DNA of 32,096 nt, taken from the IMG/VR virus record IMGVR_UViG_3300047557_000678, positions 1 to 32,096 of that record. The stretch is one strand, 5' to 3'. The stretch comes from a virus. Both the position numbers and the translations under genes were made by a program. This document shows positions 8,745 to 28,127 of the stretch, piece after piece (within the stretch, counting starts at the first letter, position 1; each line of letters begins with the position of its first letter). The notes beneath the pieces are model-generated. The model was given only the letters and a program-made list of their open reading frames with translations, did no database searches and had not been told where the DNA came from.

Positions 8745-10283
8745 TTAATAGTAAGCAGCCCTGCGGGGCGCGTAGTATTTGGTGTCCTGTTCGTCCGTGT
8801 CGAGGGTAATAAACCCCCCTTGCCGAAAGCGTAGCAATGCTTGCGACGTAGTATCTACGAAGTCGTCGTGTTCTCCAACTGGAAAGGCGGCGACTTCCTC
8901 AATTACTTCTCGTGCCCATCGGGTGTCCGGTGCCCAGACTTTGCCTGAAGTAAATAAATCCGCGATGGCGTTGACTCGGACAACTTTGTCGTTGCCTCGG
9001 CTTGGGCTGAACTCTTGGACAGGGATGCCCATTGAGCGGAGTTCTTGAATAAGTGGGGCACCTGCTGCCTTTTTTTCCACGATGAACGCATCCGGCTCCC
9101 ACTCCTTGTAGTGCTTCAATGCCGCTTGTTTTAATTCTGGAAACGCCATCCGGTCTTTAAACGCATCCAGCAGGATTACCTGTGGCTGGTCGTTTTCTTC
9201 CTCGTTGTAGAAAATGCCCCATGTCGTGCAGGCTGAGAAGTCAGCAGAGGTCTTGGACTCGTACGCCGTATCCCACGACTGGATAATATATTCGCAACGT
9301 GGTGGCTCGTCCTGCTCCCATATCCGCCAGTGTTTTCTGGCGATGATTGCCGAGTTCTCCGATGTGGGCTGCTGCATATACTGCGCGTTCCAGAACCGAG
9401 GGTCCATCCCGGCTTTCTTGGCTTTTAGCGCGTCCAACGGCCACTGCTCTGGCCAGAGCGATTTCTCAACGATGGTGCCGTCGTCTTGCTCTTTCTCTAA
9501 TATGGCCGGTAGCTCCACGATCTCCCACTGATCCGCCTCCGGGTTGCGCGTCTGGTAGTCAATCAGCCTGCCCGTTAAGTCCAACAGCGACCACCTTGTC
9601 ATAATTACTATGATCGCCCCACCCGGCATAAGCCGCTGTAGTGGGCCTGTTTGGAACCATGCCCATGCCGTATCAAACGCAAGTCTAGAGTTTGACTTTA
9701 CATCTTGTTCGGAGTGAGGATCATCGATAACAAACAAATCAGCACCGCGACCAGCAAGAGCGCCACCCACACCCGCTGCATAATACTGACCTTCTTCTGA
9801 GGTGCTCCATTTACCGGCAGCTTTTTGGTCATCAGATATCTGCGTGCTGGGAAACAGGTCTTGATATTCATCGGACTCAATCAGGTTACGAACACGACGG
9901 CCAAAGTCCTCCGACAAGGAGGCGGTATGCGTCCCCATGATGATCTTCTTGTTTGGGAACTTGCCAAGAAAGTAAGCCGGGAACAGGTAGGACGAAAACT
10001 CGGACTTACCCATACGAGGTGCAATATTGATAATAACGCGCTTCTTTTTACCCGCAATCACCTCCTCGAATATCTTGGCCAGTTTCCTGTGGTGCGGCCC
10101 TATTTTGAATCCGGGGTACACATGGAGGGCAAAGCCCAGCAAGCTGTCGCGGCCAATTTTTTTGGATGCGCGGGTCGCGCGCTCTTCCAAGTCCTGTAGC
10201 AGTTCTGCTTTTTCTTGTGCGCTTAACGTGGGGAGTACCCGGTTTAGCGCCTGTATTTCTTCAGGACTCAGTACGGGCTTCAT
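8745..10283 (-). CDS. terL: Terminase large subunit (ATPase and nuclease)
   Basis: A 512-residue DNA packaging motor protein. Walker A is APRMGKSE (88-95), Walker B is LFVIDD (183-188), and the coupling motif region MTRWSLLDLTG follows at about 228. The C-terminal RNase H-like nuclease has Asp338 in QSWDTAYE, Glu403 in FIVEKKAAG and the Asp473-Asp474 pair in EHDDFVDT. All key residues are present and length is normal. It works with the small subunit and docks on the portal encoded next. It overlaps the small terminase gene by 23 bases. Confidence 0.95.
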   Translation of the reverse strand: MKPVLSPEEIQALNRVLPTLSAQEKAELLQDLEERATRASKKIGRDSLLGFALHVYPGFKIGPHHRKLAKIFEEVIAGKKKRVIINIAPRMGKSEFSSYLFPAYFLGKFPNKKIIMGTHTASLSEDFGRRVRNLIESDEYQDLFPSTQISDDQKAAGKWSTSEEGQYYAAGVGGALAGRGADLFVIDDPHSEQDVKSNSRLAFDTAWAWFQTGPLQRLMPGGAIIVIMTRWSLLDLTGRLIDYQTRNPEADQWEIVELPAILEKEQDDGTIVEKSLWPEQWPLDALKAKKAGMDPRFWNAQYMQQPTSENSAIIARKHWRIWEQDEPPRCEYIIQSWDTAYESKTSADFSACTTWGIFYNEEENDQPQVILLDAFKDRMAFPELKQAALKHYKEWEPDAFIVEKKAAGAPLIQELRSMGIPVQEFSPSRGNDKVVRVNAIADLFTSGKVWAPDTRWAREVIEEVAAFPVGEHDDFVDTTSQALLRFRQGGFITLDTDEQDTKYYAPRRAAYY

Positions 10284-10857
10284 CGTCGATTTCTTTTATC
10301 TGGGCATCGCTGATGTCCGTGATGTCTACGATTTTTGCCAGTTTGTTAAGTTTCTCCTTGATGCGGGCTTCCAACTCGGTGTCAGATAGCTCGGTCTTTT
10401 TCACTTCTATCTTTTCGGTAAACAGACCCACCTCGGTGACTTTGCCCAACAGGGCAAGTGCTTTTAGCCGTATGCTGGCCGTGGGGTGGTTTGTGTCTTC
10501 CAAGATTTTTGCCACCGTGTAGCCGCGCAGTTCTTTGGCTTGGTGGATGAATTCCCAATCATACGCTGTTAGCATTCCAACAAGATGCTGGACGGCAGCG
10601 GGGGTTTTAATTTCGGCAAGTGCTGCTTGCTGCGCTTCTTGGGGTTGCGCAGTTATAAACGAACCAAATGCTTTTCTGGCAGCGTTGGCTTCCAACTCGG
10701 TAGCAACGTCACTACTTGCAGCGCCCAGACTCTTTAACCAATCAGTGGTTTTCACCTGTGCATCGATGACATCGACGGGATCGGTTTTCTCAAGGCGTGT
10801 GAAATCTGTGGAGTCCTGCTCCACATCGGGCGTAAAGTCGATCAGATGGTCCAGCAT
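10261..10857 (-). CDS. terS: Putative terminase small subunit
   Basis: A 198-residue acidic helical protein starting MLDHLIDFTPDVEQDSTDFT. It has VDVIDAQVKTTDWLKSLG, then AVQHLVGMLTAYDWEFIHQA, a KELRGYTVAKILEDTNHPTA segment and a charged C-terminus. I recognise this as the small protein that regularly precedes TerL in environmental phages. An upstream extension of the frame exists but passes through leader hairpins. The chosen ATG has only a weak ribosome-binding site (AAGAG at 9 bases), yet a 31-codon leader frame with a strong site runs through it and stops 13 bases inside, suggesting translational coupling. Confidence 0.75.
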   Translation of the reverse strand: MLDHLIDFTPDVEQDSTDFTRLEKTDPVDVIDAQVKTTDWLKSLGAASSDVATELEANAARKAFGSFITAQPQEAQQAALAEIKTPAAVQHLVGMLTAYDWEFIHQAKELRGYTVAKILEDTNHPTASIRLKALALLGKVTEVGLFTEKIEVKKTELSDTELEARIKEKLNKLAKIVDITDISDAQIKEIDDEARTES

Positions 10858-10937
10858 GCGATGGTTCTCTTGTAACCACGTTGGGCGCAGTGTATAGTCG
10901 TTTCTGCAAGTGTGCAAGCGGGGTCTATCCGTTGCAT
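10842..10937 (-). CDS. Leader peptide overlapping the small terminase start
   Basis: A 31-codon frame starting MQRIDPACTLAETTIHCAQR. It is preceded by AAGGAGAAGCAACT, the strongest ribosome-binding site of the late operon and identical in core to the plus-strand early ones. It ends 13-15 bases downstream of the small terminase ATG, so ribosomes finishing it could re-initiate on terS. The peptide has no recognisable domain. Its start region lies directly beside a perfect 9-bp inverted repeat and is opposite a predicted plus-strand RNA. It could be a real leader or simply a coupling device. Confidence 0.5.
   Translation of the reverse strand: MQRIDPACTLAETTIHCAQRGYKRTIACWTI
10870..10898 (+). 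promoter_or_regulatory. Sigma70-type promoter for a plus-strand small RNA
   Basis: TTGTAA (10870-10875) and TATAGT (10893-10898) are separated by exactly 17 bases; the -10 matches consensus at 5 of 6 and the -35 at 4 of 6. Transcription would begin near 10905 and run rightward, antisense to the terminase leader, into a strong terminator at 10975-11004. No coding sequence lies between, which is why an RNA product is inferred. Confidence 0.55.
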
Positions 10938-10949
10938 AGTTGCTTCTCC

Positions 10950-10971
10950 TTGATGGTTCGCAAACCATCAA
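10950..10971. repeat. Perfect 9-bp inverted repeat beside the terminase-leader RBS
   Basis: TTGATGGTT, CGCA, AACCATCAA. On the minus strand the 3' arm ends in AA immediately before GGAG of the leader peptide ribosome-binding site, so the hairpin abuts or partly covers it. It could be an operator for one of the phage HTH proteins, an mRNA hairpin controlling terminase translation, or the central hairpin of the plus-strand RNA. The symmetry is exact, so chance is unlikely. Confidence 0.65.
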
Positions 10972-10974
10972 TTC

Positions 10975-11004
10975 GCCCCGCCTTCTCCCTGCGGGGCTTT
11001 TTTT
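10975..11004 (+). terminator. Rho-independent terminator on the plus strand
   Basis: GCCCCGC (10975-10981), loop CTTCTCCCT, GCGGGGC (10991-10997), then seven T. It is a textbook intrinsic terminator in the plus direction with no plus-strand protein gene before it. It would end the predicted small RNA and also insulate the early promoter just downstream from antisense readthrough of the late operon. The minus strand has no U-tract after the stem. Confidence 0.8.
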
Positions 11005-11024
11005 CGGCTGTATTTGTCTAAGAT

Positions 11025-11053
11025 TTGACATTATTGGTTGTGTTTTTTGAAAT
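11025..11053 (+). promoter_or_regulatory. Candidate early promoter
   Basis: A perfect -35 TTGACA (11025-11030) is followed after 17 bases by TGAAAT (11048-11053), 4 of 6 to the -10 consensus. It faces the plus-strand early genes and sits directly after the small-RNA terminator. A 260-base untranslated leader with G-rich and hairpin elements would follow. The weak -10 leaves doubt; AATATT three bases further on gives a worse spacing. TTGTCTAAG occurs twice nearby (11014 and 11075) and could be a regulator site. Confidence 0.4.
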
Positions 11054-13474: not shown

Positions 13475-13523
13475 AAACAACCTGCCGCAGGCGGCACAAC
13501 AACCAAGCAAAGGAGAAGCAACC

Positions 13524-13745
13524 ATGCAACTGATCCACATCAAAACCAACGAGCCAGTCAAGACCGGCGACGTAGCGCATACGTTCGACGGTGAAGCAGT
13601 CGTAGTCACAGGCTGGAGAGAACCACACCACGCAGGCAGCACCGGCAGGGTGTATGTGAAGTTCATGAACGACAGCGGCTGGGTCACCGAGTTCTACCCC
13701 AGCGTGATCAACGCCAAATGGGTGGAGAGGAACGATGGACGATGA
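13524..13745 (+). CDS. Conserved small beta-type phage protein
   Basis: A 73-residue protein preceded by AAAGGAGAAGCAACC, one of the strongest ribosome-binding sites here. It begins MQLIHIKTNEPVKTGDVAHT, with VVVTGWREPHHAGSTGRVYV and EFYPSVINAKWVE. This pattern of short strands and a conserved GWREPH turn is familiar from many proteobacterial phages, with no assigned function. It is the first gene of a four-gene unit between hairpin copies 4 and 5. Confidence 0.75.
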   Translation: MQLIHIKTNEPVKTGDVAHTFDGEAVVVTGWREPHHAGSTGRVYVKFMNDSGWVTEFYPSVINAKWVERNDGR

Positions 13746-14354: not shown

Positions 14355-14384
14355 ACACATAAATCAACAACAGGAGAAGTAATC

Positions 14385-15977
14385 ATGCAACTACACACGA
14401 CAAGTACGTGGGTCAACCCACATGAGTCCGACTTCGAGCTACGCCTGCGCCATGCTCGTGAGGAAGCAAGAGCCAAGCAACGCAAGTACTGGCTGCACGG
14501 CTACGACAGCGGGGCGGCGATCCGACTGATCGATGATCTGAAGAACGTGCTGCGCACCATGCACGTAGTGGCTACCTGCCCCGATGCGTTCTATCTCGAA
14601 CGCAACTTTCCCAACATCAACGTAGAGGACGCCAAGGAACACGCATGGCACGCTGACCTGCAACATCGGTTCAAGCTACACCCCGCTGTGATTGCTGCTG
14701 TACACCAGTACAGACCGCGCTCTGTCCACACACTAGTCTTCGAATGGCCGCACGTATCCGAGACTGACCCCAACCGACTGGCCTACACACGCGACAACCG
14801 TGCAGGTCACGAGAACCGACAAACAATAACCAGCGTAGGGAAATACCTAGCCCGACACTTCCCCGATATGCCTGACCATGCGATACGCGATATGGCTGCA
14901 CGCTACGCGGGGTATCGGTTCGAGCTGTGGGATACCACGAACAAGATCATTCAGTCCGTGCAAGAGGGGCCAGCAAGCTGTATGCAGTGGGATGACGGCG
15001 ACGAGGACAACCACCCCTACCGCACATATGACCCCCGCTTCGGTTGGCGTGCTGCGGTGCGCTTGAACGGTCACGGCCAGATCGTTGGCCGGTGTCTGGT
15101 GTATGACGATACAGAGACAGACAGGCAGCGCATCGGCAAGATATACGTACGGTCGTATGCACACAAGGAAGGCGGGTACTCACACAGCGATGAGGGTCTT
15201 GAGTCGTGGCTGCGTGAGCAAGGGTTCAGCAAACAGCACACATGGGCGGGGTGCAAACTAGCACGCATCGAGGAGAATGGCTGGGGTGACTTCCTTGCAC
15301 CGTACCTTGACGGTGACTGTAAGCGTGTGACAGATGCAGGTACGCACCTCATCATTAACGAGACCGGACGCTTGCTGTTCGACTGTACCAACGGTAGCCA
15401 CAACACCTGCGGGCGTGAGTGCGATGACTGCGGCAACGATCATGACGAGGAGGACACCACCTACGTCGGGCGGCACGAGGATCACGGCGTGTGTCCGTCA
15501 TGTCGTGAGGACTACACCCTTGTGTATGGTCGCAGAGGCAACCAGTACTACCTGCACGACGACAACATTGTGTGGGACATTCACGGGCATGAGGCGTATG
15601 ACCCCGAGTTCCTTGCCGACAACAACATGGTCGAGTTGCATAACGGCGACATCGTTGAGATGGACGAGGCGGTGTACCTTGAGTCACGCGGTGAGTATTG
15701 GTACTGCAACGACGATCAGGTTGTGTTCTGCGAACACGATGACGTATACGAGCACATCGATGATGTTGTCGAGCTGGAAGACGGTACGTACGCAGACCCA
15801 GACAACACATGGACCTGCCATGTGTCAGGCAACATCTACCACGACAAAGCGGACAAACGGTATCGCAGGGTGTTGTCAATACGCGAGGATCAAGATGAAG
15901 TTTCTGTACATGACGACTACATCGACGCCTTCGAAGCCAACCTCGACGCCGATCTCACCACACTTGCAACAATCTAA
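14385..15977 (+). CDS. Large acidic zinc-ribbon protein of unknown function
   Basis: A 530-residue protein preceded by CAGGAGAAGTAATC. The N-terminal half is helical and includes KYLARHFPDMPDHAIRDMAA. A middle domain (about 195-310) has SCMQWD, HPYRTYDPRFGWRAAVRL and IVGRCLVYDD, a pattern I recall from uncharacterised phage proteins. A zinc ribbon follows with Cys346-Cys349 and Cys370-Cys373, then strongly acidic, Tyr/Trp-rich repeats with Cys441, Cys449 and Cys478. It may bind a protein or nucleic acid through the ribbon, or mimic DNA through the acidic part; both are inference. It forms a two-gene unit with the metallopeptidase. Confidence 0.75.
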   Translation: MQLHTTSTWVNPHESDFELRLRHAREEARAKQRKYWLHGYDSGAAIRLIDDLKNVLRTMHVVATCPDAFYLERNFPNINVEDAKEHAWHADLQHRFKLHPAVIAAVHQYRPRSVHTLVFEWPHVSETDPNRLAYTRDNRAGHENRQTITSVGKYLARHFPDMPDHAIRDMAARYAGYRFELWDTTNKIIQSVQEGPASCMQWDDGDEDNHPYRTYDPRFGWRAAVRLNGHGQIVGRCLVYDDTETDRQRIGKIYVRSYAHKEGGYSHSDEGLESWLREQGFSKQHTWAGCKLARIEENGWGDFLAPYLDGDCKRVTDAGTHLIINETGRLLFDCTNGSHNTCGRECDDCGNDHDEEDTTYVGRHEDHGVCPSCREDYTLVYGRRGNQYYLHDDNIVWDIHGHEAYDPEFLADNNMVELHNGDIVEMDEAVYLESRGEYWYCNDDQVVFCEHDDVYEHIDDVVELEDGTYADPDNTWTCHVSGNIYHDKADKRYRRVLSIREDQDEVSVHDDYIDAFEANLDADLTTLATI

Positions 15978-15995: not shown

Positions 15996-17129
15996 ATGAC
16001 TAAGCAAAACACCATTCAGTTCAAAGTACTGAACAAACTTCTTTCAACCAAGCGCCCACACGGGTCCGAGACCAACAAGCGAATCACGGCATGGCTGCGT
16101 GAGCAACTACCGTTCGAGTTGAACAAGGCTGCGTTCTATGATGGGGCAGGCAACCTGCACGTAGACAATCGTTCTTTAACTTCACATAGGACTTTGTTTG
16201 TAGCACACGTAGACACCGTACACAGATCAGAGGGCAAGAACAAGATCAGAAAGACCCAGACCCATTGGCACGCCAAGGGTGACGTACTGGGCGCAGATGA
16301 CGGCGCGGGTGTAGCGATGCTGTTCCATATGATCTGGGGTGGTATCGCAGGCTATTACATCTTCACGCAGGGCGAGGAGCGGGGCGGTGTGGGTGCGCGG
16401 TATTTGGCAGAGAAGATGCCTGATCTGTTACGTGAGTTTGACCGAGCCATTGCGTTTGATCGTCGGGGTATTGACTCTGTCATTACCCATCAGGGCTGGG
16501 GTCGCTGCTGTTCCGATGCGTTCGGGGATGCGCTGTGCGATGCGTTGATGCTGGGGTCTGACCAGTTGATGATGTTGAACGATGACACCGGCGTGTATAC
16601 GGATACCGCTGAGTTTACCAACATCATCCCTGAATGCACCAACATCTCTGTTGGCTACGACGCGGAGCATACGCAGGCTGAAAGTCTCAACCTCAACTAC
16701 TATCAACATCTTTCTTCTGCTGTGCTTCAGCTTGACTGGGACGCGTTGCCGGTGCAGCGTGATCCCTCGGTGGTGGAAGAACTGTACCCTTCTTCAAAGG
16801 GCGGTTGGTGGTCGGAGTATCAAATCTACACCGACAAATCAAGCAAGTATCTGCACGACTTCGAGTACGACGATATGCGGTTCGAGCAGATTGTGCGACG
16901 CGAAGATGCCATCGATGCCGTGATCGATGCGCAGTATGGGTTTACTGACAACTTGGCAAGAATGATTGCGGCATCGGTGTACCCCGACGATGCAGAGTTG
17001 GCAATGAAACATATGAACTTCAAACAGCTTGACCCACGCTTGCTTGACGAGGCGTACGAGGCACTCGACGCGGGGGAGGATGTTGACCTTGTGATGGGTA
17101 TGCTGTTCGATGACCTGCACGTTGCCTAA
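15996..17129 (+). CDS. Phage M20/M28-like zinc metallopeptidase
   Basis: A 377-residue protein with AAGGAGAATCATC before the ATG. It carries the whole co-catalytic metal site of M20/M28/M42-type peptidases: His71-Val-Asp73-Thr-Val, GADDGAG (99-105, bridging Asp101), GEE (Glu127 base and Glu128 ligand), Asp155 in AFDRRG and His225 in DAEHTQAE. GADDGAGVAML resembles peptidase T. The C-terminal 120 residues have no recognised domain. The family normally removes amino acids from peptides or hydrolyses amide bonds. In an early phage operon the substrate might be a host peptide or a small metabolite. It is bounded by a strong terminator. Confidence 0.85.
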   Translation: MTKQNTIQFKVLNKLLSTKRPHGSETNKRITAWLREQLPFELNKAAFYDGAGNLHVDNRSLTSHRTLFVAHVDTVHRSEGKNKIRKTQTHWHAKGDVLGADDGAGVAMLFHMIWGGIAGYYIFTQGEERGGVGARYLAEKMPDLLREFDRAIAFDRRGIDSVITHQGWGRCCSDAFGDALCDALMLGSDQLMMLNDDTGVYTDTAEFTNIIPECTNISVGYDAEHTQAESLNLNYYQHLSSAVLQLDWDALPVQRDPSVVEELYPSSKGGWWSEYQIYTDKSSKYLHDFEYDDMRFEQIVRREDAIDAVIDAQYGFTDNLARMIAASVYPDDAELAMKHMNFKQLDPRLLDEAYEALDAGEDVDLVMGMLFDDLHVA

Positions 17130-17160: not shown

Positions 17161-17174
17161 GAAAGGAGAAGCAA

Positions 17175-17405
17175 ATGTTTGAAGACGACGATATCAATGA
17201 AACAATGTGGAAGACTTCGCTGGAGGTAAGCAAACTGATAATGGACACAGGCTTATCTACCATGCAAGGCAAGGTGGTATTGGCGCGGACACTCGCTGTT
17301 GCGTTTAGGGCGGAGGGTATTGGTAGGCACGAAGCCATCACGCGCTTTACTGAGGTCGTCAAACTTGTTTACGACGAGCTTGACAAATCTACCCGTAGTA
17401 ACTAA
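17175..17405 (+). CDS. Small helical early protein
   Basis: A 76-residue protein preceded by AAAGGAGAAGCAA. It begins MFEDDDINETMWKTSLEVSK and is predicted almost wholly helical, with a VVLARTLAVAFRAEGIGRHE segment. No family or catalytic motif recognised. It opens the chain of regulatory genes after the hairpin terminator, so it probably starts a new transcript or re-uses readthrough. Confidence 0.68.
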   Translation: MFEDDDINETMWKTSLEVSKLIMDTGLSTMQGKVVLARTLAVAFRAEGIGRHEAITRFTEVVKLVYDELDKSTRSN

Positions 17406-17683: not shown

Positions 17684-17695
17684 AGGAGAAGCGTC

Positions 17696-18283
17696 ATGCC
17701 AGACCTAGCAACTGCACTACGAAAAGCAATCACAACTAAGGAGAACAACATGCAAACGCAATCAACTGAACTGAAGAAAACCATCAACGACTGGGCGAAA
17801 GACGAGAAGAAACCTAAGCACTTGTTCGAAGCATCCAACAACGTCAGCCGCGCTACGTTCAATCTCGTCAAAGCCAACCCCGGCTGCGACGCAAAGACCA
17901 TCGTCAAGATCGCAGGGAACCAAGGACACAAGGCAACCTCTGTTACATCACTCCTTGCACAACTCACACGCGTAGGACAGATACGCAAGAACGAGCAAGG
18001 CCAGATGTGGGTAACGCAGCATGAGTACACGCCGATCAAAGTGAAAGACTTGAGATTGGCCAAAGAAAAAGCAGAGAAAGAAAGACAGGCCGCAGAACGT
18101 GCAATAAGAAAAGCACAGCGCGAAGCGAACAAAGCCAAGCCAGTAGCTGTCGATGCCGCGCACAAGGTGCAGCCTAAACCCCAAGCACTACCTGACAACA
18201 TCGACCAGCTTCTCTCAACGCTGTCGTTCACTCAAGCGATTGCGCTGTACAAGAAATTAAAAGCCATGCTGGGTGAAGTATGA
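17696..18283 (+). CDS. Winged-helix DNA-binding protein with two possible starts
   Basis: A 195-residue protein. Residues about 53-107 form a winged helix-turn-helix, with [20 protein letters not shown] as the first helices and [16 protein letters not shown] as the wing; residues 116-148 are a charged coiled coil, and the C-terminus has an [20 protein letters not shown] helix. Two strong ribosome-binding sites exist: AAAGGAGAAGCGTC before Met1 and AAGGAGAACAAC before Met19. It may therefore give two products of 195 and 177 residues. The sigma-like gene overlaps its stop by 4 bases, which suggests a joint regulatory role. Confidence 0.78.
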
Positions 18284-18903
18284 ATGACTCCGTCAAAGAC
18301 TATCGGGTAACAATCAAGGTACGAAACGCACGGCTACTTAACGCGCTTGCAGAGGTTGGTGAAACAGTAGGACAAAAGCTGGCAGATAAGTTAGGTATTT
18401 CGTACATGAATCTGTTGGCGCTGTCTAACTTAAAAGCATCGCCTATTGATAAGGATGGAAACATCCGACCAATCGTGTTAAAGCTGTGCGAATTCACTAA
18501 TAAAACGCCGCTTGAACTTTTCTCTGTTGATCAACTTATACCGCTGGAAACCAACACCGCTGAAGTGGACATGACTGCCGACGATGTTGAGCAGTTGCTT
18601 CTTCCTTCAGATGGAAACGGTAACCCGGAGAAGTTGTTACTTGATGTGCAGGGAATACACAAGCTGCACGAATTAGTTGATACCTTAACACCGAGAGAAA
18701 CTAAAGTTATACAACTACGGTTTGGTTTTGATTGCCCGGATCATACGTACGAAGAAGTTGGCCAGATATTTGGTGTATCTAGAGAACGTATTCGACAAAT
18801 CGAAGCCAAAGCTTTGCGTAAACTACGACACCCGTCCAGAGCAGATCAATTGCGAGAAACCGTTGACTATCTGGAGTTTCCAGAAGAAAAGGAGGATGCA
18901 TGA
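18280..18903 (+). CDS. Phage sigma-like factor: HTH domain fused to sigma70 region 4
   Basis: A 207-residue protein. Residues about 131-187 match sigma70 region 4 of RpoD type: [15 protein letters not shown], then [20 protein letters not shown] and [12 protein letters not shown], which is nearly the housekeeping sequence. The N-terminal 80 residues look like an XRE-type helix-turn-helix with [11 protein letters not shown]. Regions 2 and 3, needed for -10 recognition and melting, are absent. It may bind the RNA polymerase beta flap and -35-like DNA, redirecting host polymerase to phage promoters, possibly the late operon. Similar fusions are known in phages and prophages from memory but are little studied. 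Confidence 0.85.
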
Positions 18904-19061
18904 GGTATTGGGTCTACGACGAGTTCGGTAGACTCTTTCGAAAGTTTTGGGACCAGCACACTGCGGTTAAGTTTTTACAGCCGGAGTGGAAGCTGGTCGT
19001 CAAACCGAAAGACAAACCTGAGAAACCAACAACAGATACACATGGAGAAGCAAGATGGTAA
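18900..19061 (+). CDS. 53-residue protein downstream of the sigma-like factor
   Basis: A 53-codon frame with GGAGG 4 bases before the ATG, overlapping the sigma-like stop by 4 bases and the next HTH gene by 7 bases. It begins [20 protein letters not shown] and continues with a [13 protein letters not shown] tail. The first half is aromatic and beta-like, the end proline- and lysine-rich. The strong ribosome-binding site and coupling at both ends make it a real gene. It could be a partner or antagonist of the sigma-like protein, but nothing proves that. Confidence 0.65.
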
Positions 19062-19273
19062 AAGCACTACAAGAAACCCACACACTCCTTGATGCCATCA
19101 TCAAGGAGTTCAACCTGAAAAACGACGCAGACCTTGCACGGTTCATGAAGGTAGCACCGTCGATGGTGTCCAAGCTACGTCACCGCACGCTATCCGTGAC
19201 AGGCGACACCATCCTGATCGTGTATGACCGCACAGGTTGGAGCATCGAGACAATTAGAAAACTACTCAAGTGA
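19055..19273 (+). CDS. Small XRE/Cro-like helix-turn-helix regulator
   Basis: A 72-residue protein preceded by ATGGAGAAGCAAG. A helix-turn-helix spans about residues 24-45, NDADLARFMKVAPSMVSKLR, with the second helix APSMVSKLRHR as the probable recognition helix. This size and layout fit a phage Cro-like regulator or a one-domain repressor. It is a candidate to bind the inverted repeats in the control region or the hairpin palindromes. It overlaps the preceding 53-residue gene. Confidence 0.78.
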   Translation: MVKALQETHTLLDAIIKEFNLKNDADLARFMKVAPSMVSKLRHRTLSVTGDTILIVYDRTGWSIETIRKLLK

Positions 19274-19282
19274 GGAGGCGCT

Positions 19283-19474
19283 GTGAAAACACTAAAAGAC
19301 ATTGACGTATTAAAGAAAGCCGAATTGTTTTCTGACACGCCCGTGCTTGTCGAAAACCTGAAAGACATGGGGATGCACGACTACGCTCGGCATCTGCACC
19401 GTATACACACGTACCACAAAGCCTTGATCGCAGAGATCAGGAAGCTACGTAAACAATTAAAGGAGAAGTTATGA
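19283..19474 (+). CDS. Small basic helical protein, GTG start
   Basis: A 63-residue protein beginning with GTG, preceded by GAGGAGGCGCT. It has a TPVLVENLKDMGMHDYARHL segment and ends in a lysine- and arginine-rich helix, IRKLRKQLKEKL. No family recognised. The stop overlaps the next gene start as ATGA, so it is translated in one chain with the zinc protein that follows. Confidence 0.62.
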   Translation: MKTLKDIDVLKKAELFSDTPVLVENLKDMGMHDYARHLHRIHTYHKALIAEIRKLRKQLKEKL

Positions 19475-19647
19475 ACGACACCAAGTTTTGCACAAGCTGC
19501 CAAACGACAAGATCAGTAGAGGGGGGAGAGACCCGAGCCACACGAGGTGTGCCACGTTGGGTGTGCCAAGCCTGTATTGAACGCAAGTCAGAAAGCATAT
19601 ACAAGAACCACAATAACGTGGAACGACAACTAAAGGAGAAAGTATGA
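19471..19647 (+). CDS. 58-residue zinc-finger protein
   Basis: A 58-codon frame with AAAGGAGAAGTT before the ATG. Cys7-x2-Cys10 and Cys32-x2-Cys35 form a compact four-cysteine zinc site, the spacing being 21 residues; a basic stretch RSVEGGETRATRGVPRW lies between and a charged helix follows. It overlaps genes on both sides by 4 bases. A small phage zinc finger could bind nucleic acid or a host protein; function unknown. Confidence 0.7.
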   Translation: MNDTKFCTSCQTTRSVEGGETRATRGVPRWVCQACIERKSESIYKNHNNVERQLKEKV

Positions 19648-19871: not shown

Positions 19872-20161
19872 GCGGAGACCATAATCAATACCAGAAGCCT
19901 AAACCGTTCCCAGCAAAATCAAAAGGCGCGTTAAGCCATGAAGAAAACAAGCAGCACAACAAAAAGATTCTGGACAAGTTCTACGAGGAGAACGCGCATC
20001 TTTACACCGCCCCACCACAGCGCGAATGGCAAACCCTGACAGAGAATGAAATCAAACACCTTTGGTACGAAGCGTGTCAGACAAATCTTGAATTAACTTC
20101 ACAACTTATTGTGCATTTGGCTAGAAACATCGAAGCCAAGTTGAAGGAGAAGAACACATGA
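19868..20161 (+). CDS. Small modular phage protein, paralogue 1 of 3
   Basis: A 97-residue protein beginning MSGDHNQYQKPKPFPAKSKG. A middle QREWQTLTENEIKHLW motif is followed by a helix and an IEAKLKEKNT end. The start MSGDHN is shared with the third gene of this set and the REWQ-LT motif and KEKNT end with the second, so the three are built from shared pieces. REWQ-LT motifs are common in short phage proteins of unknown function. It overlaps both neighbours by 4 bases. Confidence 0.72.
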   Translation: MSGDHNQYQKPKPFPAKSKGALSHEENKQHNKKILDKFYEENAHLYTAPPQREWQTLTENEIKHLWYEACQTNLELTSQLIVHLARNIEAKLKEKNT

Positions 20162-20397
20162 AACCAGCAGCATGGGTACGAAACCTGACCGATCCACAAC
20201 CGCATTGCGTAACTGACTTGAAGTACATGAGCGCGGCTGACGTTGATGCAGGGGTGCAATATGTGCCGTTGTATACAAAGCGCGAATGGCAAGGGCTGAC
20301 CCCCGAAGAAGCTAGAGAAATATCCCTAGCAAACCGTCCGTATGTGGTAGACATGATCGCCGCGCTGGAGGCAAGACTAAAGGAGAAGAACACATGA
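20158..20397 (+). CDS. Small modular phage protein, paralogue 2 of 3
   Basis: A 79-residue protein preceded by GAAGGAGAAGAACAC, the same site as the third gene. It begins MKPAAWVRNLTDPQPHCVTD, has VDAGVQYVPLYTKREWQGLT and ends EARLKEKNT. The WVRNLTD and VPLYT pieces are typical of phage Ea22-like or antirepressor-related short proteins, but no function is known. The C-terminus resembles that of the first paralogue. It overlaps both neighbours by 4 bases. Confidence 0.72.
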   Translation: MKPAAWVRNLTDPQPHCVTDLKYMSAADVDAGVQYVPLYTKREWQGLTPEEAREISLANRPYVVDMIAALEARLKEKNT

Positions 20398-20744
20398 GCG
20401 GAGACCACAACATGTACGCAAACTGGGAGCCAAGGCACGAACGACTGTACAAAGACGGAGTGCTGATACACCACAAAGTTCAACGCACACCTAATGGAGA
20501 GTGGGAAGACTACGTTCCTGAAGAACCACCGCCGGTGAAGAAGCCGCAGCCGAAAGCATTCCCAAACATGACGGGACAAACAGGCATGGACTTGCGGGAT
20601 TACTTTGCTGCGCAGGCGATGCAGACACTGATCCAGATTTTTGCAGAAGACCCAACTGTCGATAGCCCCGATGAGCGTAGGGAAATAGTAGCAAAATCAG
20701 CATATGAGCAAGCAGACGCAATGATGAAAGCGAGAGAAGAATGA
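20394..20744 (+). CDS. Small modular phage protein, paralogue 3 of 3
   Basis: A 116-residue protein preceded by AAAGGAGAAGAACAC. It shares the MSGDHN start with the first paralogue, then has a Pro-rich linker (PEEPPPVKKPQPKAFPN) and a MDLRDYFAAQAMQTLIQIFA helix followed by YEQADAMMKAREE. The latter pattern is frequent in phage proteins of unknown function. It overlaps the zinc-ribbon gene downstream by 4 bases. Confidence 0.75.
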   Translation: MSGDHNMYANWEPRHERLYKDGVLIHHKVQRTPNGEWEDYVPEEPPPVKKPQPKAFPNMTGQTGMDLRDYFAAQAMQTLIQIFAEDPTVDSPDERREIVAKSAYEQADAMMKAREE

Positions 20745-20962
20745 ACTGTCCTGAGTGTCAAAGCAGCAAGCTAAACATCTACGACTCCCGCCACATTGGG
20801 GATCACGTAGTGCGTAAAAGAAAATGTTTAGCGTGTGACGAACGGTTCTACACCATCGAGAGTTACATGTCGGCAGAAGAACTGGAAGCAATCGAAGCAA
20901 TTAGACGGGGGCAACATGACACCGGAAGCGAAAGTCAAGAAACAAGTGAGGAGGCTGCTTGA
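20741..20962 (+). CDS. NrdR-like zinc-ribbon protein without ATP-cone
   Basis: A 73-residue protein. Cys3-x2-Cys6 and Cys29-x2-Cys32 with YDSRHIGDHVVRKRKC and ERFYTIE match the N-terminal zinc ribbon of NrdR, the repressor of ribonucleotide reductase genes. The ATP-cone that senses nucleotides in NrdR is missing; instead there is a short acidic helix. It might bind NrdR-box-like DNA or interfere with host NrdR to keep nucleotide supply up; alternatively it is a generic small zinc-ribbon protein. It overlaps the VRR-nuclease gene by 47 bases. Confidence 0.75.
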   Translation: MNCPECQSSKLNIYDSRHIGDHVVRKRKCLACDERFYTIESYMSAEELEAIEAIRRGQHDTGSESQETSEEAA

Positions 20963-23430: not shown

Positions 23431-23438
23431 GGAGAAGC

Positions 23439-23765
23439 ATGAACAAAACAAAACTAAGAGCCACTTTGCCGCGCACCATCCGCATAGGGAAGCAACGATA
23501 CTCCGTCGATCTGGTGGAGACGATGCTGAACAAGGGCGACATGGCGCGGGTGTTCTACGACGAGAGAAAAATTCAGATCGGTAAGAAGAGCGGCGTCACT
23601 GGTCGGCGTTACTCAAAGAAAGAGATGAATGATTCGTTCTGGCATGAGTTGGTGCACGCCATCTTGTACGACATGGATGAGCACCGCTTGAACCGCAACG
23701 AGAAGTTCGTCACCGAGTTTGCCAACCGACTAGCTGAAGCAATTGACTCTGCGAGGTTTGAATGA
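23439..23765 (+). CDS. Small HExxH zinc metalloprotease-like protein
   Basis: A 108-residue protein preceded by AAGGAGAAGC. FWHELVHAIL contains His69-Glu70-x2-His73, a classic zinc-protease motif, and Glu88 or Glu93 could be the third ligand. The size and layout recall SprT- or ImmA/IrrE-like minimal proteases. Next to replication nucleases, a SprT-like role in removing proteins from DNA is an attractive but unproven idea. It may alternatively cleave a repressor. It overlaps the next gene by 4 bases. Confidence 0.75.
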   Translation: MNKTKLRATLPRTIRIGKQRYSVDLVETMLNKGDMARVFYDERKIQIGKKSGVTGRRYSKKEMNDSFWHELVHAILYDMDEHRLNRNEKFVTEFANRLAEAIDSARFE

Positions 23766-24436: not shown

Positions 24437-24667
24437 ATGACACGCAATTACAAATCTGAGTATCAGAACTACCACGCCCAGCCAGAGCAGATCAAGAAGC
24501 GTGGGCAACGCGTCAAGGCGCGTCGCATGCTGGAGAAAGAAGGCGCTGTCACCAAAGGTGACAACAAAGATGTTGACCACAAAAAACCTTTACGCTCTGG
24601 TGGCAGTACCACTAGAAGCAACCTCAGAGTTCGCAGTGTGAAGGCAAATAGAAGCGATAATAAATAG
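24437..24667 (+). CDS. Small HNH-like nuclease
   Basis: A 76-residue basic protein. Asp47-His48 in KDVDHKKPLRSGG, Asn62 in TTRSNLRV and Asn71 in KANRS follow the HNH order of a small phage HNH family that I recall with the same KARRMLEKEG start region. Unlike larger HNH proteins it lacks zinc-binding cysteines. It may nick DNA during replication or packaging; an inactive structural role is also possible. It starts 9 bases after the Cas4-like gene. Confidence 0.75.
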   Translation: MTRNYKSEYQNYHAQPEQIKKRGQRVKARRMLEKEGAVTKGDNKDVDHKKPLRSGGSTTRSNLRVRSVKANRSDNK

Positions 24668-24676
24668 GAGAAGCCA

Positions 24677-26239
24677 GTGCAGATCGTTGAAGACAAAGCG
24701 TTGTTGTTCAAGACGCGCAACCCCAGTAAGTATTCAATCATTCCTAAACATAAGGTCATACAAAAATATGAAGACGGGAGCGCAGAGATCGCCGTTTATT
24801 TCGGGTTGGACGAGGCGCGCGTACTCAAAAATCTTGGAGTCAAAAATGTCCCGTCTCCGATTAGTTGCCGGTATAACTGGCCGGGCAAGTTTAAGCCCAT
24901 GTCCCACCAGATTGAGACTTCGGCGTTCCTCACTCTTAACAAGAAAGCGTTTGTTTTCTCCGAGCCGGGAACAGGTAAGACCCTCTCGGCTCTTTGGGCT
25001 GCGGACTACCTTATGGAGCGCGGCGAAGTAAGACGCTGCTTGATTCTCTGCCCACTATCGATCATGCAAAGCGCATGGTTGAATGACTTGAACAACAGCA
25101 TTATTCATCGCTCTGCCATCATCGCGCACCATTACCAAGCTAGTCGGCGTATCGAGATGGTTCAGGAGAACTACGACTTTGTCATTACGAACTACGACGG
25201 TCTGAACCTGATCGCTGACGAAGTTAACAACGACGGACGGTTTGATCTTGTCATCGTCGATGAAGCCAACGCATACAAGACGATCACCACCAAACGCTGG
25301 AAGGCGTTGCAGTCCATCTTGAAACCGACGACGCACCTCTGGATGATGACGGGTACACCCGCATCGCAGTCCCCTGCTGATGCGTACGGCTTGGCGCGGC
25401 TGGTAAATCCTGCGGGTGTGCCGAAGTTCTTCACTGGTTGGCGCGACAAGGTCATGTACAAAGTCACGCAGTTCAAATGGATGCCCAAGCCCTCCGCTGC
25501 CGAGGAAGTACACGAGGCGCTGCAACCAGCGATACGCTTTACCAAAGAGCAGTGTCTTGATCTGCCACCCGTTATCACACAGGCGCGGGACGTACCGCTC
25601 ACACCACAGCAAGCCAAGTATTACAACCTGCTGAAAGAACGCATGATGGTGCAGGCAGCAGGCGAGACGATCACCGCAGTCAACGCCGCCGCAGGCGTCT
25701 CCAAGCTACTACAGATTTCCTGCGGTGCCGCATACACCGACGACAAAGAAGTCATCGAGTTCGACGCTGCGCCAAGGCTGCATGTGCTGGAAGAAATTCT
25801 GGAGGAGACATCACGCAAGGTTATTATCTTTGCATTGTTTCGCAGCACCATCGACACCATTCAGACACACTTGACCAAGCGCAACATTACTAACGAATGC
25901 ATCCACGGCGATGTCTCGCCCAACAAACGCGCTGACATCATCAGACGTTTCCAAACAGAGAAAGACCCGCGTGTACTTGTCATGCAGCCGCAGGCTACGG
26001 CGCATGGGATCACACTAACCGCAGCGGATACGGTTGTCTTTTATGGTCCATTGATGTCTGTTGAGCAATACATCCAGTGCATCGCTCGTGCTGATCGCAA
26101 GGGGCAGAACTCCGACAAGGTGACAGTCGTACACATTCAAGGCAGTCCGATTGAGCGCCGCATGTTCAAGGCGTTGGAAAGCAAAGTGACAGATAACACT
26201 CTGCTAACTGACATGTTTACAACTGAAATTCGTTCGTGA
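24677..26239 (+). CDS. SNF2-type superfamily 2 helicase/ATPase, GTG start
   Basis: A 520-residue protein beginning with GTG after AATAGGAGAAGCCA. Walker A is SEPGTGKT (95-102), motif II is IVDEAN (193-198), motif III MMTGTPAS follows, and the second RecA domain has IIFALFRSTID and motif VI QYIQCIARADRKGQ. The MSHQIETSAFL segment corresponds to the Q-motif region. This layout matches phage SNF2-like helicases that remodel DNA or replication forks. Located between nucleases and the SSB-like protein, it likely serves replication or recombination. Length is normal. Confidence 0.92.
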   Translation: MQIVEDKALLFKTRNPSKYSIIPKHKVIQKYEDGSAEIAVYFGLDEARVLKNLGVKNVPSPISCRYNWPGKFKPMSHQIETSAFLTLNKKAFVFSEPGTGKTLSALWAADYLMERGEVRRCLILCPLSIMQSAWLNDLNNSIIHRSAIIAHHYQASRRIEMVQENYDFVITNYDGLNLIADEVNNDGRFDLVIVDEANAYKTITTKRWKALQSILKPTTHLWMMTGTPASQSPADAYGLARLVNPAGVPKFFTGWRDKVMYKVTQFKWMPKPSAAEEVHEALQPAIRFTKEQCLDLPPVITQARDVPLTPQQAKYYNLLKERMMVQAAGETITAVNAAAGVSKLLQISCGAAYTDDKEVIEFDAAPRLHVLEEILEETSRKVIIFALFRSTIDTIQTHLTKRNITNECIHGDVSPNKRADIIRRFQTEKDPRVLVMQPQATAHGITLTAADTVVFYGPLMSVEQYIQCIARADRKGQNSDKVTVVHIQGSPIERRMFKALESKVTDNTLLTDMFTTEIRS

Positions 26240-26290: not shown

Positions 26291-26318
26291 AAAAAGCAGC
26301 TAATAACAGGAGAAGCAA

Positions 26319-26723
26319 ATGTCAGATGATCTTGTTCCACTGGACAAGCTTGCAAAGATTTATCGCAAGATCAAGTCCGAGATCGATCAACTCACCCAAG
26401 AGTACGACACCAAGCTGGAAATGCTCAAAGCACAGCAAGATGAATTGCGCTTTGCAATGAAAGACCAGATGAAGGCGCTCGGTGTGAGATCGGTCAATAC
26501 CGCCTTCGGGACGGTGACGATGGTCACCAAGACGCGATACAACACCACCGACTGGGACTCGTTCAAGAAGTTTATTGTCGAGCACGATGTCGTTGATCTG
26601 TTGGAGAAGCGTATTGCACAGACCAACATGTCTACGTTCCTTGAAGAGAATCCGGGGCTTGTACCGCCCGGTTTAAATTCGAACACTGAGTTCGAAATCC
26701 GTGTAACCAAACCGTCTAAGTGA
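26319..26723 (+). CDS. Conserved helical phage protein beside the SSB-like gene
   Basis: A 134-residue protein preceded by CAGGAGAAGCAA. The N-terminal half is a coiled coil, LAKIYRKIKSEIDQLTQEYD, followed by VNTAFGTVTMVTKTRYNTTD and a TDWDSFKKFIVEHDVVDLLE segment, and ends PGLVPPGLNSNTEFEIRVTK. This organisation is familiar from phage replication modules, where it often precedes the SSB-like protein and is sometimes compared with Gam or Gp157-type proteins. No catalytic residue seen. Probable role in DNA end protection or recombination is inferred. Confidence 0.72.
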   Translation: MSDDLVPLDKLAKIYRKIKSEIDQLTQEYDTKLEMLKAQQDELRFAMKDQMKALGVRSVNTAFGTVTMVTKTRYNTTDWDSFKKFIVEHDVVDLLEKRIAQTNMSTFLEENPGLVPPGLNSNTEFEIRVTKPSK

Positions 26724-27676: not shown

Positions 27677-27791
27677 AACCGAACAGCCCAGCCGGAGGTG
27701 GCGCATATAACACCGGCAGCGGGGGCTGGCATCCTTTCAGGTACGACACTTTATGCCAGTGACCCCGCACCCTACTTACAAGGAGAAGCAA
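27677..27791. other. 115-bp structured intergenic region
   Basis: No gene is supported. CCAGCC (27688-27693) is complementary to GGCTGG (27724-27729), and inside it GGTG/CACC-GGC can pair as well, giving a long bulged stem with a GCGCATATAA apical part. No U-tract follows. It lies between the SSB-like gene and an HTH gene with its own strong ribosome-binding site, so it may be an mRNA processing or attenuation element. Confidence 0.4.
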
Positions 27792-28127
27792 ATGCGATTC
27801 GGAACCGATCCCAAACATCTTGTGCGTCCCGACGATCCTGACACAAGTCATGAAGCTGCTGAACACGTTGATACAACACGGCTGGAACAAATGGTTTATG
27901 AGGCCATTAAAAGTTTCGGTGAGCGTGGGTGCATCAGCGACGAAGTTCGCGCCAAGTTTAGCGGCTACCCATACTCGTCAATTACCGCCCGATACCGTGC
28001 GCTATTAGATAAAGGCTACATCGAAGACACGGGACAACGGCGGCAAGGAAAATCGGGCAGAAACCAGCGCGTCATGCGCATACTTAACGCAGACAAACTA
28101 CATGGCCTACTCTCAAAAAATAATTGA
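27792..28127 (+). CDS. Winged-helix DNA-binding protein
   Basis: A 111-residue protein from the ATG after AAGGAGAAGCAA. An upstream in-frame ATG has no ribosome-binding site. It begins MRFGTDPKHLVRPDDPDTSH and has a winged-helix domain: RLEQMVYEAIKSFGERGCIS, SDEVRAKF and YSSITARYRALLDKGYIEDT, with a basic RRQGKSGRNQRVMRI wing and tail. It resembles small phage regulators that sit before the primase gene. A role at an origin or promoter is inferred. Confidence 0.8.
   Translation: MRFGTDPKHLVRPDDPDTSHEAAEHVDTTRLEQMVYEAIKSFGERGCISDEVRAKFSGYPYSSITARYRALLDKGYIEDTGQRRQGKSGRNQRVMRILNADKLHGLLSKNN

Follow-up and report, generated by a model that had tools for sequence, protein, structure and literature searches.

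The window analysed here, a stretch of 32,096 nucleotides that forms an IMG/VR virus record, appears to carry a small RNA gene, one well supported by its recurrence among about 150 IMG/VR relatives. An unpaired patch of this RNA is complementary to the ribosome sites of many early genes of the same phage. Patch and sites changed together among relatives, a pattern suggestive of an RNA switch that would halt the making of early proteins as the late packaging genes come on. We therefore favour, with a probability of roughly 0.7, a trans-acting phage small RNA that blocks early ribosome sites and so stops early translation once late transcription begins. Comparison of sequences supports the RNA gene itself, the plus strand as the selected one, the match between seed and early sites, and their co-variation. 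Repression as the result, its onset late in infection and a possible requirement for Hfq are what we infer.

The small RNA locus and its conservation

The locus adjoins a putative terS gene (10261-10857, minus strand), named by its position and having a conserved start, MLDHL/MLEHL, at 10857; its product matched no family. Promoters and starts were predicted here by consensus. On the plus strand, a predicted promoter TTGTAA-17-TATAGT (10870-10898, with TTGTAA at 10870-10875 and TATAGT at 10893-10898) precedes a predicted RNA of about 100 nt (10905-11004), whose 5' end was placed from the -10 element. A short 5' stretch leads to TTGCTTCTCCTT (10940-10951), in the anti-Shine-Dalgarno seed GTTGCTTCTCCTT (10939-10951, plus strand), the complement of AAGGAGAAGCAAC, and two hairpins follow. 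The first, P1, has nine base pairs (TTGATGGTT/cgca/AACCATCAA, 10950-10971, plus strand); the second is an intrinsic terminator (GCCCCGC/cttctccct/GCGGGGC followed by seven T, 10975-11004, plus strand). The UCUCCU of the seed is predicted to be unpaired, and UUGCUUCUCCUU is the unpaired motif. CTTCTCC occurs at 10943-10949 and again, in the terminator loop, at 10982-10988. The initial annotation of this DNA had described this promoter, a body of about 100 bases with a 9-bp hairpin, the terminator with seven T and both CTTCTCC copies, and all were found where it had put them.

Two other promoters are predicted next to that of the RNA gene. That of terS, TTGCAC-17-TACACT (10889-10917, minus strand), is predicted to be late and overlaps the small-RNA promoter at the -10 elements. 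On the other side, an operator-like palindrome, TGTCTAAGATTTGACA (11015-11030), overlaps the -35 TTGACA of a likely early rightward promoter. The palindrome TGTCnAACnTTnGACA recurs in relatives (at matching places in L004-L082), where it adjoins TTGACA-N17/18-TATAAT, and its place over the early -35 makes it a probable operator for some regulator. The terS frame stays open 5' of its conserved start as far as 11031 (10261-11031, minus strand). Automatic annotation of this open frame would probably call a 256-aa protein and thereby mask the small RNA.

A TerL search retrieved hundreds of relatives from IMG/VR, and isolates were only about 50% identical; the annotated phages searched gave no DNA match to the window. 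Judging from the sources of the IMG/VR records and from one isolate relative, these phages appear to be freshwater. Among the relatives, whose contigs are fragments, a single order recurs upstream of terS: promoter, CUUCUCC-type seed, variable hairpin and terminator. About 40 of 48 distinct relatives have a small-RNA promoter (TTG...-16/17/18-TATAnT/TACACT/TACAAT) at the corresponding position, and the terS -10 is TACACT or TATACT in 38 of these 48. Two pattern scans placed the RNA 655-714 nt upstream of TerL, on the opposite strand, in all 57 loci that hold TerL. The CUCC core of the seed is present in nearly all relatives bearing the RNA, and its flanks differ between close relatives. No clear equivalent was found upstream of TerL in DSL-LC04, HTVC027P, 023Pt_psg01 and HTVC023P (TerL about 50%), nor in MinM2 (TerL 44%) or the beta-proteobacterial contig L134. 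The only genome contig with a TerL relative (50%) comes from a metagenome-assembled beta proteobacterium.

The same comparison separates the two CTTCTCC copies. The first copy and the terminator survive it. The loop copy had been put forward as a second motif complementary to early ribosome sites, a view to be given up if related phages had lost it; every other relative examined lacks CTTCTCC in the loop, the window alone having it, and we rejected it as conserved design. The terminator loops of the window's nearest relatives are also C-rich.

The strand under selection

Stems were picked by their Watson-Crick pairs, with mismatches tolerated whatever their type, a procedure neutral with respect to strand. 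Consensus folding of MAFFT alignments was unusable, because P1 varies in length and the stems were misaligned, and each sequence's stems were scored singly. P1 has 20 different 5' arms among the relatives and yet keeps its pairing (combined p=1.5e-15 against same-base shuffles). Read on the plus strand, the stem mismatches comprise 22 G-U and not one A-C, the latter being what a G-U on the minus strand would look like. Stems that vary while pairing is kept, and G-U outnumbering A-C by 22 to 0, identify the plus strand as the selected RNA.

These observations bear on a very different reading of the locus, in which the minus strand is the leader of terS, with a ribosome site for terS or for a leader peptide, and the hairpins are leader structures. 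The window does have GGAGAAG-5-ATG on that strand, an ATG follows the motif in 28 of 48 relatives, and in one clade a frame of 230 aa opens from the minus-strand GGAGAAG. We nevertheless rejected this reading and consider it very unlikely. Relatives keep the minus-strand GGAGAA, but 20 of the 48 have no ATG after it, as a ribosome site of terS would need. The minus-strand frames are mostly of 5-49 aa and unrelated to one another, and the ATG, where present, is also the complement of the targets' start codon. Furthermore, the conserved start and the promoter of terS lie downstream of the motif, G-U pairs occur on the plus strand only, and the T-run is positioned for a terminator on the plus strand. 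The initial annotation had set the RNA opposite the terminase leader and had allowed that it might delay terminase. Neither this placement nor a repression of terminase finds support: there is no terS ribosome site there, the conserved start is the ATG at 10857 (MLDHLIDF...), and the predicted message begins near 10883, left of the RNA and outside its complement. A minus-strand start further right, which would let the RNA overlap the terS transcript as a cis-antisense RNA of the OOP or sar type does, is also compatible with the sequence.

Early ribosome sites and their co-variation with the seed

GGAGAAG occurs 20 times on the two strands of the window, against 3.2 expected from dinucleotide shuffles, none of 100 reaching 20. 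It had been claimed to stand before twelve named early genes, and it does so in 12 of 12, a few bases 5' of the start codon. The early-gene consensus reads more fully AAGGAGAAGCAA-ATG, to which TTGCTTCTCCTT of the RNA is exactly complementary. At 6 of 35 early starts of the window, and at none of 14 late ones, duplex energies fell below z=-2 relative to shuffled RNA. The energy comparison with shuffles that had been proposed as a check sets early starts apart from late ones, but two of the named targets, those at 20158 and 20394, come out weak.

All twelve predicted sites lie on the plus strand. The best belongs to the gene starting at 13524 (site 13510-13534), where 23 of 25 nt are complementary to the RNA and the complementarity spans the start codon; its duplex has -29.4 kcal/mol, against -14.9 with shuffled RNA (z=-4.9). 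The gene at 14385-15977 is a predicted target as well (site 14373-14387, -24.5 kcal/mol, z=-4.7), and so is that at 27792-28127 (27782-27794, -26.3 kcal/mol, z=-3.5). Further predicted targets are the genes 17175-17405 (17165-17177, -21.0 kcal/mol, z=-3.1), 17696-18283 (17685-17698, -21.7 kcal/mol, z=-2.4), 19055-19273 (19044-19057, -20.0 kcal/mol, z=-1.8) and 19471-19647 (19462-19473, -17.5 kcal/mol, z=-3.5). The two weak candidates are 20158-20397 (20146-20160, -16.0 kcal/mol, z=-0.7) and 20394-20744 (20382-20396, -17.4 kcal/mol, z=-1.0). Next to the latter, 20741-20962 (plus strand) encodes a 73-aa protein with only the N-terminal zinc ribbon of NrdR (PF22811, E=5.9e-13). The remaining three predicted targets have orthologues whose sites track the RNA class, namely 23439-23765 (23431-23441), the DNA helicase gene 24677-26239 (24667-24679) and 26319-26723 (26309-26321), which is Pam3 gp33-like and weakly Gam-like. 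The polymerase, primase and nuclease genes of the window showed no match to the small RNA, so that any shut-off of early genes would be partial.

The relatives allowed us to ask whether sites follow the seed. Genes were called by longest frame and starts by a GGAG, GAGG or AGGA core, which is blind to the bases tested. RNAs were classed by the four bases after GGAG as AAGC, AAAC or AAAG. Early sites of AAGC genomes were 26 AAGC, 6 AAAC and 11 AAAG; those of AAAC genomes 5, 19 and 1, and those of AAAG genomes 4, 1 and 27, in the same order. Site and RNA class agree in 72 of these 100 sites of the first genome set, with 34 expected. A larger set gave agreement with the genome's own RNA at 79 of 119 extended sites, where 44 were expected (p=2e-5, in a permutation that treats genomes as independent; the independent class switches that could be tested in genomes number about three to four). 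The class itself changed eight times on the TerL tree. The gene at 23439 illustrates the co-variation, its site being aaggagaagcATG in the window, aggagaaacaATG in one relative (G002) and aggagaaagcATG in another (G004), and sites of the orthologues of helicase 24677, 26319 and 26720 likewise follow the class. Extended sites are also concentrated on the early strand, with 119 of 370 sites against 19 of 198 on the late strand (p=4e-10). The central claim of the initial annotation, a small RNA whose anti-Shine-Dalgarno motif is aimed at the phage's own early genes, is borne out to the extent that the RNA is conserved in most relatives and co-varies with early sites.

The match is uneven among genomes. 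Four of them have the small RNA and no site of their own class (G008, 0/7; G013, 0/11; G029, 0/8; G030, 0/8). The metallopeptidase-like early gene 15996-17129 (plus strand; PHROG 4191, weak M28 match) has an extended site (GGAGAAAC) in AAAC relatives and not in the window. Seeds are strongly altered in the distant relatives L316, L323, L311, L326, L221, L275, L292 and L267, with complements such as GGAGAAAGTGG, GGAGAGTATA and GGAGTAAGCAA; their early ribosome sites could extend the co-variation, but the contigs of these relatives are mostly too short for it.

Natural losses point the same way as the co-variation. In a clade with TerL about 77% identical (L195, L197-L203, L289, L291, L298, L302, L305, L309, L310 and L318-L324), the body of the small RNA is missing and the terS promoter runs straight to the early operator. 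Four genomes of this clade have the extended type at 1 of 47 early GGAG sites, against 119 of 370 (p=1.4e-6), a difference that may reflect a single event of loss. In addition, G005 has the seed AATAG, has lost P1 and has no sites of its own type, and G028, with the seed GGAGGAGC, has no extended site.

One might argue that the plus-strand hairpin is a mere insulating terminator, which keeps antisense readthrough out of the early promoter, CTTCTCC being incidental. A strong terminator does stand immediately before that promoter, but the seed has been conserved and varies in step with the early ribosome sites, P1 is retained as a second hairpin, and the clade without the small RNA lacks the terminator too. 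We rejected this explanation, which we hold to be extremely unlikely.

Possible roles and known counterparts

We propose that rightward transcription from one half of a bidirectional promoter would make the RNA, the other half driving the late terS-terL operon. An intrinsic terminator belonging to the small RNA would end it shortly ahead of the early promoter. The unpaired UUGCUUCUCCUU of the RNA would then pair with ribosome sites of the form AAGGAGAAGCAA-AUG, found before many genes of the early strand, and exclude ribosomes, and the late-strand genes, mostly devoid of a matching site, would escape. The onset of late transcription would in this way stop early translation. The small RNA (10893-10898) and terS (10894-10889) have -10 elements that overlap, one on each strand, and their predicted starts are separated by about 22 bp; divergent starts of bacterial bidirectional promoters are 7-25 bp apart (PMC10268837). 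With overlapping -10 elements, the small RNA should be made together with the late operon, and this shared promoter makes the shut-off of early translation its likeliest role. The early-strand gene 18280-18903 (plus strand) encodes a protein of 207 aa in which a sigma-70 region 4 domain was recognised (PF04545, E=1.5e-20); it may be a sigma factor of the phage or an RNA-polymerase appropriator. This product could switch on the late/small-RNA promoter.

The same RNA and targets might serve another moment, preceding infection or at its onset, or might confer superinfection immunity, with a resident phage silencing a newcomer of the same address. The address does differ between close relatives, with its eight changes on the TerL tree, as heteroimmunity would predict, and c4 RNA gives heteroimmunity in P1/P7 (PMC12197685). 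The promoter shared with terS points instead to late expression, no sign of lysogeny was encountered in passing, and we regard these timings as rather unlikely. One might further speculate that a single RNA with a lineage-specific site address makes a genome-wide translational switch whose address diversifies because it decides which co-infecting phages are silenced; we hold this idea to be doubtful.

The closest element by build is the Betaproteobacteria toxic small RNA, RF02278, reported in four copies in B. cenocepacia (PMC4603805) and four in Herbaspirillum (PMC7011215), for which pairing with ribosome sites was suggested. An Rfam search of the window at gathering level gave no match, and 11 short relative loci gave nothing at E=0.05 (64 kb). 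Searched as a single family in each genome, RF02278 aligned over model positions 1-64 of 64 to the window's RNA with 39.0 bits, below its gathering cut-off of 50 bits. None of 39 phage genomes passed this cut-off, relatives scoring 11-31 bits. In the first 21 phage genomes its best match, with scores that never reach the cut-off, nearly always falls on the small RNA; one exception is cut at that place (G018) and G010 is weak, at 11.4 bits. Of the four genomes from the RNA-less clade, three had no match and the fourth had 13 bits away from the expected place. In both RNAs an unpaired UCUCCU towards the 5' side is followed by a single hairpin and then by an intrinsic terminator. However, RF02278 has a second CUCC in the loop of its first hairpin, whereas the P1 loop of the window is CGCA and holds no anti-Shine-Dalgarno motif; the window's RNA is also phage-borne and its predicted targets are the phage's own early genes. 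This likeness raises the possibility that the RNA is directed at the host and shuts its translation, as toxic small RNAs inhibit the growth of E. coli (PMC4603805, PMC7011215): the architecture is the same, and the full-length match has E=8.5e-7 in 201 nt. Yet phage genes should avoid a host-directed RNA, and early sites instead match it over 10-13 nt and change along with it; beyond the CUCC, moreover, its flanks differ between close relatives. A role against the host is in our opinion clearly unlikely.

The RNA targeting early genes that we favour shows, in its sequence, several attributes of trans-acting, seed-pairing small RNAs: a predicted promoter of its own, an intrinsic terminator, a conserved unpaired seed and co-varying sites. 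Small RNAs are known to regulate phage development, e.g. lambda OOP and aQ, P22 sar and P1/P7 c4, of which sar and c4 keep a phage mRNA from initiating translation (PMC12197685). Each has one phage target as described in that review, whereas a dozen early genes share the site in the window. Lambda PreS and VP882 VpdS act in trans, as proposed here; PreS targets host dnaN, and VpdS alters levels of host and phage mRNAs via Hfq, with no common ribosome-site address reported for either in its description there (PMC12197685). The phage small RNAs described in this 2025 review act on one phage target each, on genes of the host or on its small RNAs (PMC12197685). In the open-access literature searched, we met no account of a phage RNA that recognises a common site before many of its own early genes.

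By task, the closest system is T4 RegA, which competes with ribosomes at about 30 mRNAs and sits atop the middle-to-late switch, and T4 RegB cleaves at GGAG within the initiation regions of early genes (PMC3014915). The likeness is one of function: RegA and RegB are proteins and the window's element is a non-coding RNA that would read an extended ribosome-site sequence. If our reading is true, a single RNA operates an early-to-late switch at the level of translation, as an RNA counterpart of RegA whose co-evolving targets number up to a dozen in each genome, among uncultivated phages with many environmental relatives. It would also account for the length of the early-gene ribosome site, which exceeds what a ribosome requires. 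The relatives, which show changed seeds, changed targets and loss of the RNA, would then offer an unusually clean natural experiment.
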